Source: Rhizobiaceae bacterium (GTDB taxonomy: Bacteria; Pseudomonadota; Alphaproteobacteria; Rhizobiales; Rhizobiaceae). From it: 64,000 nucleotides of DNA. The translations under genes and the position numbers were made by a program. Numbering within the stretch: position 1 is the stretch's first letter; the number at the start of each line of letters is the position of its first letter. Of this stretch, positions 16,592-23,294 are shown piece by piece. The notes under the pieces were generated by a model. It saw nothing but the letters and a program-made list of their open reading frames with translations, searched no databases and had not been told where the DNA came from. Location: positions 1-64,000 of the forward strand of contig JARGOF010000007.1 of assembly GCA_029212415.1 (NCBI GenBank), read 5' to 3'.

Positions 16592-16620
16592 CTTATAACA
16601 CAAAATATAGTGCAAATCAA
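16592..16620 (-). promoter_or_regulatory. Sigma-70 type promoter of carD
   Basis: On the minus strand TTGATT and TATAAG are separated by 17 bases, with an AT-rich spacer. Predicted transcription start is near 16585, about 255 bases upstream of the carD start codon. Confidence 0.55.
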
Positions 16621-17789: not shown

Positions 17790-20700
17790 TTACTTTTTCA
17801 TCTGCTCCTTGAGGGCAGCGAGTTTGGCAAAGGGTGAATCCGGATCAATGGGTTTTTCCTTGCGCGGTGGGCGCGCAGCAAACTGATTGCCTTTCGCCGG
17901 TTTGTGCGCCTTGCCTTTGAAGCCGCCCTTGCCCCTTGGTTTGTCATTGGGCCGATCGTTTGATCTGTCCTGAGGCTTGCCGGAACGATCGCCTTCGCTG
18001 TTGTTCCTGTTGTTGCCCCGGCCAGCGCCCTGGCCTGGCTTCTGCTGATTCCTGTTGCGCCCGCGGTTGTTGTCGGTGCGTCCCGCCGGGTGCCACAACA
18101 ACACCGGCTTTGGCGCTTCAACGTCTGGGGCGTCTGCTTGTCCCTCAGTTGCCGGGACATCTGCGGACTGAACCTCTGGGCTTTGCCCCTCCGGTTGTTG
18201 TCCATCCGATTGTTGTCCATCCGGGGCACTGGAAACGGCTGCTGCTTCCACAGCGCCTTCTGCAACGGCTGCAGGGTCTTGAGAGGCCGCTTCGGTTTTG
18301 TCTGCCTCAACTTTGGAATCAACACTGGCCGGTTCGGCCTCCGGCTGTGCAGCCGTTGCCTCCGGCACCGCCTCTGCCTCGGCAGTCGGCTCTGCAGCAG
18401 TGGTCGCTTCTGTTTGCGCTGCGGCAGTCTTTTCCGCCTGCACTGCGGCCGCCTCGGCTTCAGCCGCCTTGGTTGCCTCGGCCTCCTGGATCTTTTTGTC
18501 AACAGATGCCAGATGCGCCGAAACCTCCTCGGCGGTGACCGTGTCGGCACGATACCCGAGACCTTTGAGAATTTCCTCTATATCATCAGGCGTCGCACCA
18601 AGGATCGACAACATGGCCGGTGTGGTGACAAAACGGCGGCCATCATAGGCGCCGTCCGGACGCGCGGCCCCATTGGGCTTCCATTGCAACAGCGGTCGGA
18701 TCAGATCGGAAAGCCGCTCCAGAATATCAACCCGCACAGCGCGCTTGCCAAGAAAGCGGAAGCCCGAAAGCCGGTAGAATTCCCGCTCGAAGGACGCATC
18801 GGTCACGATCGAGGTCCGACCGGCTGCCAATGCGCCGGTGATTTCGCCATAGCCTGGCTTGTCAAACCCGTTGTTGCGCAGTGACCAAAGCAATGTGATC
18901 AATTCTGCGGGTGCCGGTTTGAGCAGAGCGGGCATGAAAATGTGATAGGCGCCGAAGCGCACGCCATAACGCCGCAAAGAACCACGGGCGTCCTGATCCA
19001 GCGCCTTGACATCATCGGCCACATCACGGCGGAACAGAATGCCCAGAGCTTCAACAAGCCGGAAAGCCAGTCCCTTTGCCAGTCCTTCCAGATCCTCGGC
19101 GCGCGCAAGTTCGTCCAGCGGCTTGAGGATCGTGCTGATATGGTGATTTACGAAACGCTCGATGCGGGCGACAACAACCTCTTTGGCCTGCGCTGACAAT
19201 TGTTCGTCGGCCAGCAAAATGCATCGCGGTCGCAAAATCGAATCGCTATCGGTCAATCGTGCAACAGGATCACCCATCCAGCGCAGAACGGCATCTGATC
19301 CAAGGGCAAAGTCGCTATTGCCGGAAGCGTGCAGGCGCGCCGCCCGCGCCTCGAATTCCAGCCCCAGAGATTTTTGCGCAGCTGCCAGGACAGCCTTGGC
19401 GTCCGGCCCCTCTGCACTTGCGTCCAGCGTAAAGCGGAATCCCGCCAATTGTCCTACATGATGTCCTTCAACAAAAACATCACCATCAACACCAATTTCA
19501 GCTTCAAGCATCGCATTCTCTCTTAACCGCTTCATGAGCACAGATGTCCTGCGGTCAACGAAGCGTTTCGTCAACCTCTCATGCAGTGCATCTGACAGTC
19601 GATCCTCGATTTCTCGAGTCTTTTCTTGCCAGTGTGACGGATTCGCAAGCCATCCGGGTCTGTGCGCAGCATAAGTCCATGTTCTTATCTGGGAAACGCG
19701 CGCTGATAAAGTGTCGATCTCACCGTCTGTTCGGTCAGCCCTGCGTATCTGTTCGGCAATGTAATCTTCGCGGATAGCGCCGGAGCGCACAATATCCCCA
19801 TAGATCGTGGATATCATATCCGCATGCTGGGCAGGCGTGATCCTGCGATAATCGGGAAGCGCACATATATCCCACAGTTGTTCCACCCGTTCTGGCGTCG
19901 ACGCCAGATCAACCACATCGCGATCGCGCACCAGATGTTCAAGCGCCTGCTGATCGACAACCGGCAGGGACCGGGTCAATCCCGGTAGCGTCGGTGTCGT
20001 GTCGAGACTGGCCTGCAGCGATGCCAGAGAACTGAAATCAAATTGCTTGCTGCGCCACTGCAACACTTTCAACGGCGCAAAATCATGGCTTTCAATGCGC
20101 TCGACCAGATCATTCGAAAACGAATCGACCCGGCCCGTCACGCCAAAAGTGCCATCACGCAAATGTCGCCCCGCACGCCCTGCCACCTGCCCCAGCTCGG
20201 AGGGGTTCAATTTGCGATACTGGTAGCCATCAAACTTCTGATCCTGCGCAAATGCCACATGATCAACATCCAGATTGAGCCCCATGCCGATCGCGTCGGT
20301 GGCCACCAGATATTCGACATCTCCGGCCTGATAAAGCGCGACCTGCGCATTGCGGGTTCGCGGGCTCAGCGCGCCCAGAACGACAGCTGCCCCGCCGCGC
20401 TGGCGACGGATAAGCTCGGCGATGGCGTAAACCTCATCAGCAGAAAATGCCACAATGACGGACCGGCGCGGCAGCCGCGTAATCTTCTTTGCGCCCGCAT
20501 AGGCAAGATGGGAAAGGCGCGGCCTTGAAATCACGGTCAGGCCCGGCAGCAGTTTTTCAAGAATGCCGCGCATGGTTCCAGCACCCAGCAACAGGGTTTC
20601 CTGGCGTCCCCGCAAATTGAGAATCCGGTCGGTGAACACATGGCCGCGCTCCAGGTCACCTGCCAGTTGAACCTCGTCAATGGCAACAAATGCCGCGTCG

Positions 20701-20993
20701 GTCTGCTGCGGCATGGCTTCCACCGTGCAGACCTGATAGCGCGCGCCCGCCGGACTGATCTTTTCCTCCCCGGTCACCAGCGCGACTTTATCGCGGCCGA
20801 CTTTCAGACAAATGCGCTCATAGACTTCGCGTGCCAGCAATCGAAGCGGCAATCCGATGACACCGCTCTCATGGGCCACCATGCGTTCAATCGCATAATG
20901 CGTTTTGCCCGTATTGGTCGGCCCAAGAACCGCAACGACATCGCGGCCGCTGAATATCATGGGTTGATCTTGCCTGGGAGGGGATTGGGACAT
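17790..20993 (-). CDS. SUV3-like superfamily 2 helicase with low-complexity tail
   Basis: A protein of about 1067 residues. The N-terminal motor has Walker A GPTNTGKTH (about residues 24-32) and a DEVQ box (AFVAIDEVQ), followed by the helicase C-terminal domain with TDAIGMGLNLD and QVAGRAGR. This pattern resembles the mitochondrial RNA helicase SUV3 and its alphaproteobacterial relatives. From about residue 820 the sequence becomes alanine/glutamate rich (AEAEAAAVQAEKTAAAQTE and similar), then an Asn/Arg/Gly basic segment, ending in a Lys-rich tail. ATG 20993 is used, but no good Shine-Dalgarno is seen; GTG 21056 is an alternative. Confidence 0.88.
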   Translation of the reverse strand: MSQSPPRQDQPMIFSGRDVVAVLGPTNTGKTHYAIERMVAHESGVIGLPLRLLAREVYERICLKVGRDKVALVTGEEKISPAGARYQVCTVEAMPQQTDAAFVAIDEVQLAGDLERGHVFTDRILNLRGRQETLLLGAGTMRGILEKLLPGLTVISRPRLSHLAYAGAKKITRLPRRSVIVAFSADEVYAIAELIRRQRGGAAVVLGALSPRTRNAQVALYQAGDVEYLVATDAIGMGLNLDVDHVAFAQDQKFDGYQYRKLNPSELGQVAGRAGRHLRDGTFGVTGRVDSFSNDLVERIESHDFAPLKVLQWRSKQFDFSSLASLQASLDTTPTLPGLTRSLPVVDQQALEHLVRDRDVVDLASTPERVEQLWDICALPDYRRITPAQHADMISTIYGDIVRSGAIREDYIAEQIRRADRTDGEIDTLSARVSQIRTWTYAAHRPGWLANPSHWQEKTREIEDRLSDALHERLTKRFVDRRTSVLMKRLRENAMLEAEIGVDGDVFVEGHHVGQLAGFRFTLDASAEGPDAKAVLAAAQKSLGLEFEARAARLHASGNSDFALGSDAVLRWMGDPVARLTDSDSILRPRCILLADEQLSAQAKEVVVARIERFVNHHISTILKPLDELARAEDLEGLAKGLAFRLVEALGILFRRDVADDVKALDQDARGSLRRYGVRFGAYHIFMPALLKPAPAELITLLWSLRNNGFDKPGYGEITGALAAGRTSIVTDASFEREFYRLSGFRFLGKRAVRVDILERLSDLIRPLLQWKPNGAARPDGAYDGRRFVTTPAMLSILGATPDDIEEILKGLGYRADTVTAEEVSAHLASVDKKIQEAEATKAAEAEAAAVQAEKTAAAQTEATTAAEPTAEAEAVPEATAAQPEAEPASVDSKVEADKTEAASQDPAAVAEGAVEAAAVSSAPDGQQSDGQQPEGQSPEVQSADVPATEGQADAPDVEAPKPVLLWHPAGRTDNNRGRNRNQQKPGQGAGRGNNRNNSEGDRSGKPQDRSNDRPNDKPRGKGGFKGKAHKPAKGNQFAARPPRKEKPIDPDSPFAKLAALKEQMKK

Positions 20994-21119
20994 GACTGGG
21001 GAAACATCTTCACTTTGGAAAGGGGTGCCTATTAGCACGACAATGGACCGTGACACACGGCAAAACGAACATTCTTTGAAGCCCTTGGAAGGCCGGCCAT
21101 TAACGTTTGGAACAGGGGT

Positions 21120-21146
21120 GGAACGAATCAGCGACGAATCGCTGAC
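21120..21146. repeat. Partial repeat core, copy 0
   Basis: The 27-base heart of the core is present (GAACGAATCAGCGACGAATC and onward), including the perfect CAGCGA-CGAA-TCGCTG hairpin. The flanks have diverged beyond alignment. Four GANTC sites lie within 34 bases here (21125-21158). Confidence 0.75.
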
Positions 21147-21307
21147 TCGGGATGATTCAGGTTTTGTTCACGGCAAGATGTGTCCTTTCCGGTGAAGGCT
21201 GGCACTAGATACTGAATCTTCACGCGGGACCAGCGGCTGAATATCGATCGAATTTGCCTCAAATCTTAACCTTTGGCGCCGTTGCGGATTTCATACGAAA
21301 TTTCCCG

Positions 21308-21322
21308 TTAACTTTTTGTTAA
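21308..21322 (+). promoter_or_regulatory. CtrA-type box of repeat unit 1
   Basis: Perfect TTAA-N7-TTAA with spacer CTTTTTG, 69 bases upstream of the first complete repeat core. Match to the CtrA consensus is direct; occupancy is inferred. Confidence 0.55.
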
Positions 21323-21370
21323 ACAACAATAATCCTCAATATCCGGTTAACAGAAACCTACCTATATATA

Positions 21371-21463
21371 GTGATTTTTGTTAGGAATACGACCAAAAGC
21401 GGAACGAATCGGCGACGAATCACTGACCTGCTCAGATTCTCTTTATGTTCTCACAACATCTAG
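21371..21463 (+). CDS. Possible 30-codon ORF in repeat unit 1
   Basis: GTG-initiated frame that shares its C-terminal 24 residues' pattern (TKSGTN-RRIxDL-RF-xCSHNI) and its stop with the 38-codon ORFs of units 2 and 3. The N-terminal half and ATG of those ORFs are missing, so this is either a decayed copy or evidence that the frame is accidental. Confidence 0.2.
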   Translation: MIFVRNTTKSGTNRRRITDLLRFSLCSHNI

Positions 21464-21490
21464 CGTTCAGCCGTGGGCGCAGACACAATT
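21391..21490. repeat. Repeat core, copy 1
   Basis: 100-base core starting GACCAAAAGCGGAACGAATC and ending ACACAATT. It differs from copy 2 at about 10 of 100 positions by eye. It holds three GANTC sites. Confidence 0.85.
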
Positions 21491-21715
21491 TCTATCGCCA
21501 CCGGGCACAGGCGGCAGTCAGAAATGCAGCCTGATTTTAACCTATGGCGGCCAAATGGCCAAAATCCTGCCGGATGACGTGGCATGCAAGATTGCAACAA
21601 ACAGGTGAAATCACCCGATCAAAGGCAATGGCCGAATCACTCTCGCAACACATGGCATTTTTCAAGCCATCCCGGTCGCACTGCACCACCTATCGAACGT
21701 GGACACCCTATCCTG

Positions 21716-21729
21716 TTAAGTTTTGTTAA
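21716..21729 (+). promoter_or_regulatory. CtrA-like box of repeat unit 2 (N6)
   Basis: TTAA-GTTTTG-TTAA, one base shorter than the CtrA consensus spacer, in the position of the perfect boxes of units 1 and 3. It ends 23 bases before the ATG of the 38-codon ORF. Confidence 0.4.
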
Positions 21730-21752
21730 GAATAGACATATGTAAAGTTTTA

Positions 21753-21869
21753 ATGAATGAAAATCCGCCAGAAATCATGCTTTGCGTTAGGGTTTCGACC
21801 AAAAGCGGAACGAATCAGCGACGAATCACCGACCTGTACAGATTCCGCATTTGTTCTCACAACATCTAG
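21753..21869 (+). CDS. Possible 38-residue protein, repeat unit 2
   Basis: ATG to TAG frame of 38 codons, beginning MNENPPEIM and ending CSHNI. The unit 3 ORF has the same length, start and stop positions in the repeat, no indels, and most residues unchanged. Between units 2 and 3, six of ten substitutions in the core part of this frame fall at third codon positions, a hint of protein-level constraint. There is no strong Shine-Dalgarno and conservation runs past the stop, so a noncoding role remains possible. No family is recognised. Confidence 0.35.
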   Translation: MNENPPEIMLCVRVSTKSGTNQRRITDLYRFRICSHNI

Positions 21870-21896
21870 CGTTCAGCCGTGGGCGCAGGCACAATT
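21797..21896. repeat. Repeat core, copy 2
   Basis: Same 100-base length as copies 1 and 3. It differs from copy 3 at about 17 positions by eye, with the sequence AGCGTTCAGCC kept in all complete copies. The hairpin is weakened here (CAGCGA/TCACCG). Three GANTC sites. Confidence 0.85.
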
Positions 21897-22088
21897 TTCC
21901 CGCTCTGCGAACAGGTTTGACTGACAGTAAGCGCCCCTGCCGTTAACCTTTGGCAGCCAAACGACCCGATTGCGACCATGGGTTCAACGTTAAGAACACA
22001 AGATTGGGCTCATTGGCGAATCAGAAGTCATCGTTTGGCCAGGACAGCGCGAATCGGTCAGGACATCGTTTTGATGTAAATAGTCCCA

Positions 22089-22103
22089 TTAACCTTCTGT
22101 TAA
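22089..22103 (+). promoter_or_regulatory. CtrA-type box of repeat unit 3
   Basis: Perfect TTAA-N7-TTAA with spacer CCTTCTG, ending 23 bases before the ATG of the unit 3 ORF, the same distance as in unit 2. Confidence 0.55.
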
Positions 22104-22126
22104 AAATAGATATTCGTAAATTTTTA

Positions 22127-22243
22127 ATGAATGCAAATCCGCCAGAAATCGTGTGCCGCGTTAGGTTTCCGACCAAAAGCGGAACGAATCAGCGACGAAT
22201 CGCTGACCTGAACAGGTTCCCTGTCTGTTCACACAATATCTAG
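22127..22243 (+). CDS. Possible 38-residue protein, repeat unit 3
   Basis: Paralogue of the ORF at 21753-21869: MNANPPEIV at the start, TKSGTNQRRIADL in the middle, CSHNI at the end, basic overall. It has the same start, stop and length. No signal peptide or membrane segment is visible and no family is recognised. Translation is unproven; the CtrA-type box would place a transcription start close to this ATG, which argues against a normal leader. Confidence 0.35.
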   Translation: MNANPPEIVCRVRFPTKSGTNQRRIADLNRFPVCSHNI

Positions 22244-22270
22244 CGTTCAGCCTTCCACGCGGACACTATT
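22171..22270. repeat. Repeat core, copy 3
   Basis: Third complete 100-base core, with the perfect CAGCGA-CGAA-TCGCTG hairpin and two GANTC sites; the third GATTC of the other copies has become GGTTC. Divergence is strongest in the last 20 bases. Confidence 0.85.
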
Positions 22271-22451
22271 TTCGTGCCGGTCAGGCCTGTCCAACACGCC
22301 AGAAAGGGGCCAGCCGTTAACCTTTGACGGTCCATTGACCAAAACCTGGCCCTCCAACAACAGCGCGAAACGCGATGCCGGAGACAATGGGCGAATCACT
22401 CACCGCGCTGGGTGGACCGAAGGCAGAACACGCGATTGCAGAATTGCCGCC

Positions 22452-22480
22452 AAAAAAAACGGCGCCCGATGGGACGCCGT
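22452..22480 (-). terminator. Rho-independent terminator of phaB
   Basis: ACGGCG and CGCCGT arms with a ten-base loop; on the minus strand the stem is followed by a run of eight T. It lies about 27 bases past the phaB stop. Confidence 0.88.
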
Positions 22481-22506
22481 CTTTTGGATACAGAAGATCA
22501 AAAGGA

Positions 22507-23232
22507 TCAGATGAGATATTGACCGCCATTGGCGCTGATCGTTGAGCCGGTGATAAAGCCGGCATCGTCGGATGCCAGGAAGACCACGCAACGGGCGATC
22601 TCTTCTGGTTCGCCAAGCCGTCCCACTGGGATCTGCGGTATGATACGCTCATTGAGCACCTTCTCAGGCACCGCACGCACCATTTCCGTTCCGATATAAC
22701 CGGGACAAATGGCATTGACCGTAATGCCCTTCGCAGCACCCTCCTGGGCCAGCGCCTTGGTCATGCCCAGGTCACCTGCCTTGGCGGCTGAATAATTGAC
22801 CTGACCCATCTGGCCCTTTTGGCCATTGATCGAGGAAATATTGATAATCCGGCCAAAACCACGATCCCGCATGCCAACCCAGACCGGATGGGTCATGTTG
22901 AACAGGCCTGTCAGATTCGTGTTGATCACCGCACTCCACTGTTCGGGGAGCATCTTGTGGAACATGGCGTCGCGGGTAATGCCCGCATTATTGACCAGCA
23001 CCTCGACCGGACCGAGGTCGGCTTCAACCTGTGCGATGCCATCAACGCAGGCCTGATAGTCGCCGACGTCCCACTTGTAGACCGCAATACCGGTCTCTGC
23101 CTTGAATGCATTGGCCTTCTCGTCATTGCCCGCATAACTTGCGGCAACGCGATAACCGGCCTCCTTGAGAGCAACGGCAATTGCGGCACCTATTCCGCGT
23201 GTTCCTCCGGTAACGACTGCAACTCTGCTCAT
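22507..23232 (-). CDS. phaB: Acetoacetyl-CoA reductase
   Basis: A 241-residue short-chain dehydrogenase making (R)-3-hydroxybutyryl-CoA from acetoacetyl-CoA with NADPH, the second step of polyhydroxybutyrate synthesis. Seen: nucleotide-binding TGGTRGIG near the N-terminus, NNAGITRD, the SSINGQKGQMGQVNYSAAKAG catalytic stretch with Ser, Tyr and Lys, and CPGYIGTEMV. ATG 23232 has GGGGAG five bases upstream, deciding against the TTG four codons earlier. It is 60 bases downstream of phaA, with which it probably shares a transcript. Confidence 0.95.
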   Translation of the reverse strand: MSRVAVVTGGTRGIGAAIAVALKEAGYRVAASYAGNDEKANAFKAETGIAVYKWDVGDYQACVDGIAQVEADLGPVEVLVNNAGITRDAMFHKMLPEQWSAVINTNLTGLFNMTHPVWVGMRDRGFGRIINISSINGQKGQMGQVNYSAAKAGDLGMTKALAQEGAAKGITVNAICPGYIGTEMVRAVPEKVLNERIIPQIPVGRLGEPEEIARCVVFLASDDAGFITGSTISANGGQYLI

Positions 23233-23294
23233 GGTACTCCCCAATAGCTGATAGGATGCAAAGTGGCCTTGCGGCCACCTTGCACAGATTCAAA

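Follow-up and report, generated by a model that had tools for sequence, protein, structure and literature searches.

The gap between a Suv3-type helicase gene and a phaB-type reductase gene, in the 64,000-nucleotide stretch of Rhizobiaceae DNA analysed here (the window), holds an array of tandem repeats, and the question is what such an array is for. It appears to be a DNA control element, long kept beside one helicase gene in related bacteria, with a build that would suit binding by NrdR, the sensor of dNTP levels, and by cell-cycle regulators.

Anatomy of the array

Self-comparison of the window gave copies of a 179-nt repeat starting at 21315, 21721 and 22095 (spacing 406 and 374), the middle one being 72% and 83% identical to the outer two. 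The E-value of the third copy (4.3e-47) puts the repeats far above chance. The initial annotation had counted about 3.5 units; the tandem repeats are real, but there are in fact four cores in the helicase-phaB gap, a divergent first one that is 61-63% identical to the others and three that are alike (87-88% among themselves). The three 100-base cores that it had placed at 21391, 21797 and 22171 differ pairwise by 10, 16 and 17 bases, in agreement with its estimate of about 10 and 17. Likeness among units peaks in the core: the 80 nt preceding it are 78.5% alike in units 3 and 4 and 46.8% in units 2 and 3, and the spacers 3' of cores 2 and 3 are 45% alike. The features are as follows.

17790-20960, minus strand: Suv3-type helicase (Pfam DEXQc_Suv3 1.7e-26, Helicase_C 3.6e-9), with an alternative GTG start at 21056 open
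21109-21169, plus strand: unit 1 core, helicase-proximal type (core matrix 86.5; first-core logo)
21110 and 21121, plus strand: GAAC sites of unit 1, with 7 bp between them (LexA-box spacing); GAATC at 21125 and 21136
within 21109-21169, plus strand: further unit 1 sites (GACTC, GATTC and a reverse GAAC-type site)
21171-21186 (weak, -8.4) and 21202-21217 (11.6), plus strand: unit 1 NrdR-like pair, 31 bp apart
21308-21322, plus strand: full CtrA-type box TTAA-N7-TTAA, upstream of unit 2
21390-21450, plus strand: unit 2 core, second type (core matrix 76.9)
21451-21466 (13.4) and 21483-21498 (5.1), plus strand: unit 2 NrdR-like pair, 32 bp apart
21796-21856, plus strand: unit 3 core, second type (core matrix 75.3)
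21857-21872 (13.4) and 21889-21904 (degenerate, -7.6), plus strand: unit 3 NrdR-like pair
22089-22103, plus strand: full CtrA-type box TTAA-N7-TTAA, upstream of unit 4
22170-22230, plus strand: unit 4 core, second type (core matrix 74.3)
22231-22246 (19.9) and 22263-22278 (weak, -3.0), plus strand: unit 4 NrdR-like pair, 32 bp apart
22449-22490, no strand assigned: hairpin read from the sequence, with A8 before and TCTTTT after; plus-strand terminator-like site at 22468
22507-23244, minus strand: phaB-type reductase (Pfam adh_short_C2)

In each unit, GAAC/GANTC half-sites recur with an 11-bp phase and a pair of palindromes is spaced by 31-32 bp, and conservation itself has a periodicity of 11 bp (p 0.0006, column shuffle). 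In sequence terms, the invariant part of each unit is this GAAC array with the NrdR-like palindrome pair, and not the CtrA box. The hairpin at 22449-22490 is likely a two-way terminator that separates phaB from the array.

The enrichment of CtrA and GANTC sites described earlier is borne out: CtrA half-sites (TTAAC/GTTAA) and GANTC each occur at 12.5 per kb in the array, against 0.84 and 2.66 per kb in the 7,153 bp of other intergenic DNA in the window. Around the cores of relatives we counted 656 CtrA half-sites where 58.5 were expected. Full TTAA-N7-TTAA boxes are present at 7 of 108 relatives' loci and in 6 of 15 among the other in-family stretches listed; outside the family the TTAA preceding the first core is mostly missing (5/26), and in some species the first GANTC is degenerate while the rest of the motif is intact. 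The array shares with CtrA/CcrM-type regions, such as the cell-cycle promoters of Caulobacter and Rhizobiales, the TTAA-N7-TTAA boxes, the many TTAAC half-sites and the GANTC clusters; it differs in that its invariant block is not a CtrA box. The cell-cycle link proposed in the initial annotation is supported by the over-representation of motifs, here and in relatives. The region may titrate CtrA. As candidates for other regulators, ChvI and CenR operators were set aside, since by eye the motifs reported in PMC9731502 and PMC9275681 do not fit.

Conservation beside the helicase gene

Among 119 public stretches matching the core pattern, 108 have a GPTNTGKT-type helicase motif near the core; of the remaining 11, nine carry phaA or phaB and two look like chance. 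These 108 helicase loci hold one to four core copies each, upstream of the helicase and, without exception, in a single orientation, and the distance from core to GPTN codon is near-constant, with a median of 240.5 bp. The helicase is the constant neighbour across relatives, and the phaB side of the array varies: L058 and L068 have no phaB match between the helicase and phaA or phaR.

A pattern allowing one mismatch matched in 133 of 199 family genomes, a few of these being clearly chance matches elsewhere, against 8 of 199 for the reversed pattern used as control, and it matched in none of the five helicase-free genomes examined. Of 25 helicase loci in family genomes, most of which gave no pattern match, 16 have no core. 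Conservation reaches into other families of the order: 27 of their 85 helicase loci were covered, with a core at 26 of these and, on the reverse strand, at 0 of 52 loci. The core matrix found nothing upstream of the helicase in one record each of Methylobacterium bullatum, from the same order, and of Paracoccus versutus and Indioceanicola profundi, from outside it. Compared with genome G004, the cores are 94.3% identical and the spacers 83.0%; some blocks 3' of a core are conserved within Mesorhizobium, and S. meliloti Ak57 keeps just one full unit.

The search of the core against its own and other genomes that had been proposed at the outset gave a single locus here, conserved in relatives. 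The full core being confined to one locus, we rejected a dispersed repeat or mobile element (REP, MITE or palindromic element); a shorter 16-letter pattern has three one-mismatch matches elsewhere in the source genome. BLAST of the core against plasmid records gave one match, in which the whole helicase-pha block lies on a Rhizobium plasmid. Nothing in the literature covered (titles and abstract openings) pointed to such an element, and the core in four spellings led to no paper. The initial annotation did not contain the NrdR-like palindrome pairs, the association with the helicase or the breadth of the conservation.

Palindrome pairs and a proposed NrdR operator

NrdR boxes have their usual home at RNR genes. 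The array locus has no RNR gene, its neighbours being the helicase and phaB, and the two PF02867 matches of the genome both sit on another contig. We built an NrdR matrix solely from RNR promoters of the family (32 boxes from 16 promoters, found at 16 of 30 loci searched), whose genes we take to be nrdJ. Run over 217 cores at 220 offsets, this matrix scored highest on average at two offsets, 50 and 81, which lie 31 bp apart and score 2.27 and -8.1 against a mean of -23.8 (sd 4.0). Only 1 of 2000 column-permuted palindromic matrices equalled the 31-bp pair; 12 of 2000 equalled the single-box score, which counts against an NrdR reading. The best pair scored at least 10 in 45 of 108 helicase gaps and in 0 of 48 carD gaps, although these controls (343-678 bp) mostly span less DNA than do the helicase gaps, whose median is 558 bp (range 125-2222). 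In 94 of the 108 helicase gaps, the offset of the best pair from a core is 49-51.

C..G contacts of NrdR have been reported at positions 9/18 and 40/49 (PMC9110341). Contacts of this type occur in most first cores (C53..G62 in 93/106, C84..G93 in 91/106); in later cores they are kept in 86/112 and 26/112, so that the second box is often weak. The signal is weaker in the first cores of other families (12/26 and 11/26), where position 50 leads the offset profile (3.4 sd) and the unrelated offsets 27 and -17 (2.5 sd) outscore offset 81 (2.3 sd). Published spacers between NrdR boxes are 15-16 bp (PMC12051234), a spacing of about three helix turns between box centres. The boxes are spaced at 31 bp in first cores and in the RNR promoters used, and at 32 bp in units 2-4 of the window. 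The only units there with two passable boxes are 2 and 4; the unit 2 pair has the top pair score of the window (18.5), and the unit 4 pair is among three genomic sites that differ from ACACNATATNTNGTGT by at most one mismatch, although such matches alone are near chance. The plain NrdR pattern is itself near chance in the source genome (22+30 matches against 20+20 for the reversed pattern), so the NrdR case rests on the matrix and on conservation. The top-scoring single NrdR-like box in the window lies at 16598-16613, in the carD gap; it is not conserved in 48 relatives, exceeding 10 in one of them, and was therefore treated as chance.

The palindrome pairs are thus probably NrdR boxes, an identification well supported by the sequence. 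They share with the NrdR operator of the family's RNR promoters two 16-bp palindromes 31-32 bp apart and, in each box, a C and a G nine bases apart, and they match the family's own RNR boxes. The array differs in that it precedes a helicase and no RNR gene, is repeated one to four times, often has a weak second box and has the GAAC/GANTC array attached; the core matrix finds no such array in the 30 RNR loci (best -33.6).

Our preferred reading, at even chances, is of a composite operator that works as DNA and controls transcription at the helicase locus. The NrdR tetramer binds DNA when it carries both dATP and ATP (PMC12051234). When dNTPs are plentiful, the tetramer would occupy the box pair of each unit and repress local transcription starts; when dNTPs are low, it would leave the units. 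The 11-bp phased GAAC/GANTC array would be bound on one helix face by a putative second factor, the CtrA half-sites and GANTC sites would link this stretch to the cell cycle, and the tandem copies would multiply the operator. The anatomy, its conservation and orientation, the association with the helicase and the match to the family's NrdR boxes are computed results; from them we infer that NrdR binds here, that it represses, and that regulation acts on the helicase and not on a divergent transcript. The core showed no conserved sigma-70 promoter and, by eye, no conserved -35 on either strand; in Mesorhizobium, a likely helicase promoter (also by eye) lies between unit 1 and the gene, about 150 bp from the NrdR pair. 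The lack of a sigma-70 promoter in the core and the place of the Mesorhizobium one count against the proposal and make the helicase start no more than a candidate for the regulated start.

Alternative readings and possible meaning

Each unit could instead be a plus-strand promoter that fires away from the helicase and yields a non-coding transcript; the GAAC array would then provide activator sites and the first NrdR box would cover the -10, like the apparent layout of RNR promoters. By eye, the first NrdR box of the 16 RNR promoters contains TATATT, or a sequence close to it, that resembles a -10, and that layout, taken in the plus direction, places the array upstream of box 1; plus-strand ORFs lie 170-240 bp after two later cores of L108, and the gap is closed by the likely two-way terminator. 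This reading is nonetheless unlikely. Promoter-like sites number 3 against 1.7 expected and all three are on the minus strand, terminator-like sites number 2 against 2.3 expected (one of them on the minus strand, at 21617-21602, between units 2 and 3), and the low likeness of the spacers 3' of cores 2 and 3 speaks against a transcript. The consensus fold of 25 first cores (-1.96 kcal/mol, covariation term -0.17) gives no conserved structure; its alignment comprised the first core of the window and 24 of 28 located stretches, L154, L271, L273 and L288 being omitted because their first matrix match may not be the first core. Fold z-scores for one unit are -1.40 (plus) and -0.29 (minus), and Rfam gave no match at gathering level, and none near it in the window gap. 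On these folds, Rfam results and chance-level terminators we rejected a small RNA gene family, which the initial annotation had considered.

The same annotation had also raised an association with the origin or a partition site, for which we found no basis: there is no GC-skew switch at 21 kb, and parS lies elsewhere, 102-477 kb from the array in 9 of 13 searched genomes (those with both on one contig). Such a distance would suit a cluster on the origin side, made up of NrdR, CtrA and methylation sites, that doubles in early S phase and so titrates a regulator or reports replication, as would the very high site density within 1.3 kb, the copy number of 1-4 per locus and the DnaA-box-like sequences outside cores (18 against 3.5 expected, at 15 of 108 loci; conserved in Mesorhizobium). 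We consider such a sink or timing site distinctly improbable, since the fixed orientation and near-constant distance to one gene favour local regulation, nearness to parS may be mere synteny, and S. meliloti Ak57 has only its one full unit. The array does share 11-bp phased direct repeats with internal methylation sites, and an origin-side position, with iteron and replication-control sites (RctB iterons, crtS, datA); the resemblance goes no further, the array having no replication gene or origin, with parS elsewhere, and being tied to a helicase gene.

The GAAC array may also be read as a LexA operator, which would place the locus in the SOS regulon and make the NrdR-like part secondary. The spacing reported for alphaproteobacterial LexA is GAAC-N7-GAAC (PMC3323433, PMC8565304). 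Among first cores, 103/106 in the family and 25/26 in other families show it; unit 1 has this exact half-site spacing and an inverted second site. A LexA matrix made from 9 boxes gave its two best offsets at -11 (plus) and 34 (minus), in first and later cores alike, but it is a weak matrix, as two of the nine true boxes fail the 95% level when left out (-6.6 and -3.4 against 0.6). Outside the GAAC halves, the bases of later cores score above the random 95% level in 55/112 (site A) and 43/112 (site B); those of first cores, where the spacing is exact, do so in 5/106 and 12/106, spacer and flanks there appearing unlike the 9 SOS boxes compared. Later units seldom keep both halves (15/112 later cores), the array runs on in four 11-bp steps, and the invariant CGACGAATC block is unexplained by LexA, all of which leaves this operator a doubtful candidate, with little probability.

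Decaying or selfish repeat DNA without function, for which the tandem layout and the between-species change in copy number might speak, is refuted in practice, position and orientation being conserved in family and order, the locus single and the cores more conserved than the spacers; the initial annotation had reserved this outcome for an array with no transcription, no CtrA occupancy and no conservation in closely related genomes, and in such relatives we found it conserved.

To return to the composite operator, NrdR box pairs before an RNA/DNA helicase, interwoven with cell-cycle motifs, would, if real, put an enzyme of RNA metabolism under dNTP control. NrdR regulons in Proteobacteria are small (186 regulons with 591 genes, 3.2 per regulon, as we understand the columns of PMC5343134), and they are filed there under deoxyribonucleotide biosynthesis. 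An operator of this kind would also connect nucleotide level with the cell cycle of alphaproteobacteria in a way open to direct testing. A more ambitious version, which we think quite unlikely, is a dedicated device coupling dNTP supply to the cell cycle, in which NrdR, CtrA, CcrM methylation and a putative protein on the 11-bp array would meet on the origin side, so that replication would set RNA turnover by the Suv3-type helicase or the availability of NrdR; RNA turnover by the helicase might then supply RNR with ribonucleoside diphosphates. The invariant block with its 11-bp phasing also suggests a DNA-binding protein, and this single locus may be its main target.

Repeat units between the helicase gene and phaB

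Four repeat units, each composed of a core and a palindrome pair, lie between a Suv3-type helicase gene and phaB.

17790-20960, minus strand: Suv3-type helicase gene (Pfam DEXQc_Suv3)
21109, 21390, 21796 and 22170: starts (-12 position) of the four cores, in the helicase/phaB gap
22507-23244, minus strand: phaB, the other border of the array gap

The initial annotation described three 100-base cores and a partial unit. The three are the last cores of the array and are indeed close, with pairwise differences of 10, 16 and 17 bases; the supposed partial unit is a fourth core. Core identity is 87-88% among units 2-4, and the helicase-proximal core of unit 1 is a separate type (61-63% identity to the others). 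In the 80 nt preceding the core, units 3 and 4 share 78.5% identity and units 2 and 3 share 46.8%; for the spacers 3' of cores 2 and 3 the figure is 45%. The array is missing from the TRF tandem-repeat output.

Numbered from the G of the second GAAC (position 0), the first-core consensus reads GGAAC (-12), GGAACGAATC (-1), G-CGACGAATC (10), -CTGACtc (21), TTC (35-37), TTTGTTC (42-48), CnAnATnTnG (53-62) and C..A.AT...G (84-93), and its conservation follows an 11-bp period (p 0.0006, column shuffle). Among the matches listed from public genomes, a TTAA near -20 is present in 76/106 first and 99/112 later cores. In other families, it is present in just 5/26 first cores. GANTC sites per 62 bp average 4.0 in first cores and 1.9 in later cores of the listed loci, and 3.6 in other-family first cores. 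The richness in CtrA-type and GANTC motifs reported initially holds in the listed relatives: around the cores of 108 loci there are 656 TTAAC/GTTAA sites where first-order Markov sequences predict 58.5, and 984 GANTC sites against a predicted 261 (329 against 126 with the cores removed). In some species the fourth base of the first GANTC varies while GGAACGAA and the next C are constant, which suggests that a protein reads the sequence here, and not methylation alone. Directly 3' of core 2 in L050 and other Mesorhizobium loci lie the DnaA-box-like TTATCCACC and AATCCACAG, or near forms, largely kept across 20 aligned Mesorhizobium loci.

Distribution and association with the helicase gene

In its own genome, the 179-nt unit has no match outside the array. 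Searched with as many as 3 mismatches, a 27-letter core pattern hits the four cores plus a single site at 3 mismatches, and a 16-letter pattern has three 1-mismatch matches at other places. DNA BLAST found matches in 18 of 41 genomes (40 relatives plus this one): 16 among the 25 in-family genomes, all adjoining the helicase motif, and two short ones outside the family, away from that motif. Comparison with other genomes, a check proposed in the initial annotation, yields matches both within the family and beyond it. A pattern allowing one mismatch occurs in 133/199 family genomes, a few of them clear chance matches elsewhere (reversed-pattern control, 8/199).

A scan of public genomes returned at least 119 stretches; the genera among the matches listed (Mesorhizobium, Rhizobium, Ensifer, Hoeflea, Nitratireductor, Chelativorans, Bartonella and Brucella/Ochrobactrum) led us to take the family as Rhizobiaceae in the wide sense. 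Of the 119 stretches listed, 108 contain the helicase motif; nine of the remaining 11 carry phaA or phaB and end short of the helicase, and two look like chance. Within the stretch held, the 108 listed loci have one core (18 loci), two (74), three (10) or four (6), none in the opposite orientation. The distance separating the first core and the GPTN codon has a median of 240.5 bp and runs from 138 to 511 bp, and spacings between neighbouring cores peak at 270-274 bp (35/112) and 280-284 bp (36/112). Cores remain beside the helicase in two loci where no phaB match was found (L058, L068), at loci with inserted genes, and on a 489-kb Rhizobium plasmid (L190, NZ_CP072868.1) that carries S4, helicase, core array, phaB, phaA and phaR as a block; the helicase is therefore the constant partner.

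Individual loci vary. On the Rhizobium plasmid, two genes, annotated there as DUF3309 and glycine zipper, separate the array from phaB (L190:4438-4881), and in L067 and L107 similar small ORFs follow core 2 and precede the last core. In Rhizobium sp. L1K21 (L108:3400-7300), inserted ORFs split the array, and two later cores each lie 170-240 bp ahead of a plus-strand ORF. The L297 record (CP090106.1) bears the name S. meliloti plasmid pSymB but looks like a mislabelled chromosome, since it measures 3.72 Mb and carries the helicase-pha locus and lexA; its second core has mostly lost the GAAC array and retains a good-looking NrdR box.

In a depth sample of 30 genomes from the family, of which 27 had no pattern match and three had one (G015, G017, G018), 25 have the helicase, nine of these with a matrix-detected core; the five lacking the helicase (G012, G013, G067, G079, G095) have no pattern match. 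Of 91 genomes sampled across the order, 88 carry the helicase. At a matrix score above -5, a core lies upstream of the helicase on the same strand in 26 of the 27 most similar out-of-family loci (from the 85 helicase-bearing genomes of that sample outside the family), and the best reverse-strand score was -15.3 (52 loci scanned). With the nine of 25 sampled family loci, this means that the element extends past the family, with losses. Run on the helicase upstream region of one record each from Paracoccus versutus, Indioceanicola profundi and Methylobacterium bullatum, the same matrix detects no core.

Palindrome pairs and proposed function

The first-core palindrome CnAnATnTnG corresponds to the centre of the box bound by NrdR, a sensor of dNTP level, and a second block follows 31 bp further. 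We searched 30 ribonucleotide reductase (RNR) loci for box pairs using the NrdR consensus and spacings of 26-47 bp; 31-bp-spaced pairs scoring at least 24 were found in 16, of the long-protein type that we take to be nrdJ. The 32 boxes of these 16 loci made up our matrix, the other 14 loci being left out. The pair of the genome's own RNR gene is ATACTATATTTAGTAT, 15 bp and GCACCATATATAGCGC.

Over 217 cores and 220 offsets, the top mean scores of this matrix fall at offsets 50 and 81. With 190 non-redundant cores, 12 of 2000 column-permuted palindromic matrices reach the single-box score and one of 2000 column-permuted matrices the 31-bp pair score. The best pair scores at least 10 in 45/108 listed helicase gaps versus 0/48 fdxA-carD gaps, and lies at offset 49-51 from the core in 94/108. 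In the 64-kb window, the 1.3-kb array holds five of the seven top single-box places. For the NrdR-DNA structure, PMC9110341 gives C..G contacts at 9/18 and 40/49, which match C53..G62 and C84..G93 of the core in spacing and offset. On the other side, the window has weak boxes in three units (the first box in unit 1, the second in units 3 and 4), the second box is often poor in later cores, other-family first cores have the C..G contacts in just 12/26 (C53..G62) and 11/26 (C84..G93), two unrelated offsets outscore 81 outside the family, and the plain NrdR pattern is near chance level in the own genome. On balance, the palindrome pairs are quite probably NrdR boxes.

Two further NrdR-like palindromes were noted. 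One, TACCTATATATAGTGA (score 15.4, 21359-21374), precedes the unit 2 GAAC by 43 bp, off the usual positions. The top single box of the window (20.6; 16598-16613, between carD and fdxA) is probably chance, because it has poor neighbours at 31-32 bp and lacks conservation in 48 relatives.

On the most economical reading, the array would act as a set of operators governing transcription at the helicase locus, with NrdR as the predicted repressor. The controlled start may instead point away from the helicase: the first NrdR box seems to overlap the -10 region at RNR promoters, and the same layout fits such a start, but the array's tie to the helicase argues for the helicase as the controlled gene. 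As speculation, RNA turnover supplying ribonucleoside diphosphates for RNR could link the helicase to RNR. Small RNA genes, suggested initially, gained no support from tests for Rfam matches, a consensus fold (25 first cores) or terminators; the two terminator-like sites, one of which lies in the minus strand of the stretch separating units 2 and 3, are at chance level. The origin and partition readings, also raised initially, fail, with no GC-skew switch at 21 kb and parS elsewhere. The locus does lie on the origin side, though: of 13 genomes, nine have it on the same contig as parS, at a distance of 102-477 kb. Within the terms searched, no title or abstract start in the open-access collection pointed to the element.

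GAAC array and LexA-like sites

According to PMC3323433 and PMC8565304, GAAC-N7-GAAC is the alphaproteobacterial form of the LexA site. Among the matches listed, it is present in 103/106 first versus 15/112 later cores. The core matrix found nothing similar to the GAAC array in the 30 RNR loci or in the own genome's three SOS loci (best -26.8). A LexA matrix of nine boxes was built from loci of the own genome that we take to be imuA, lexA and ssb/uvrA, and from gaps at lexA or imuA in public records; its best offsets fall on the GAAC array. With the GAAC halves omitted, the two LexA-like positions of the core, sites A and B, exceed the random 95% level in 5/106 and 12/106 first cores and in 55/112 and 43/112 later cores of the listed loci, by a weak matrix: two of its nine true boxes miss that level themselves when left out. 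Upstream of lexA in Methylobacterium bullatum (L305:304-329), three GAAC half-sites in 11-bp steps form an extended LexA-type array ahead of lexA itself.
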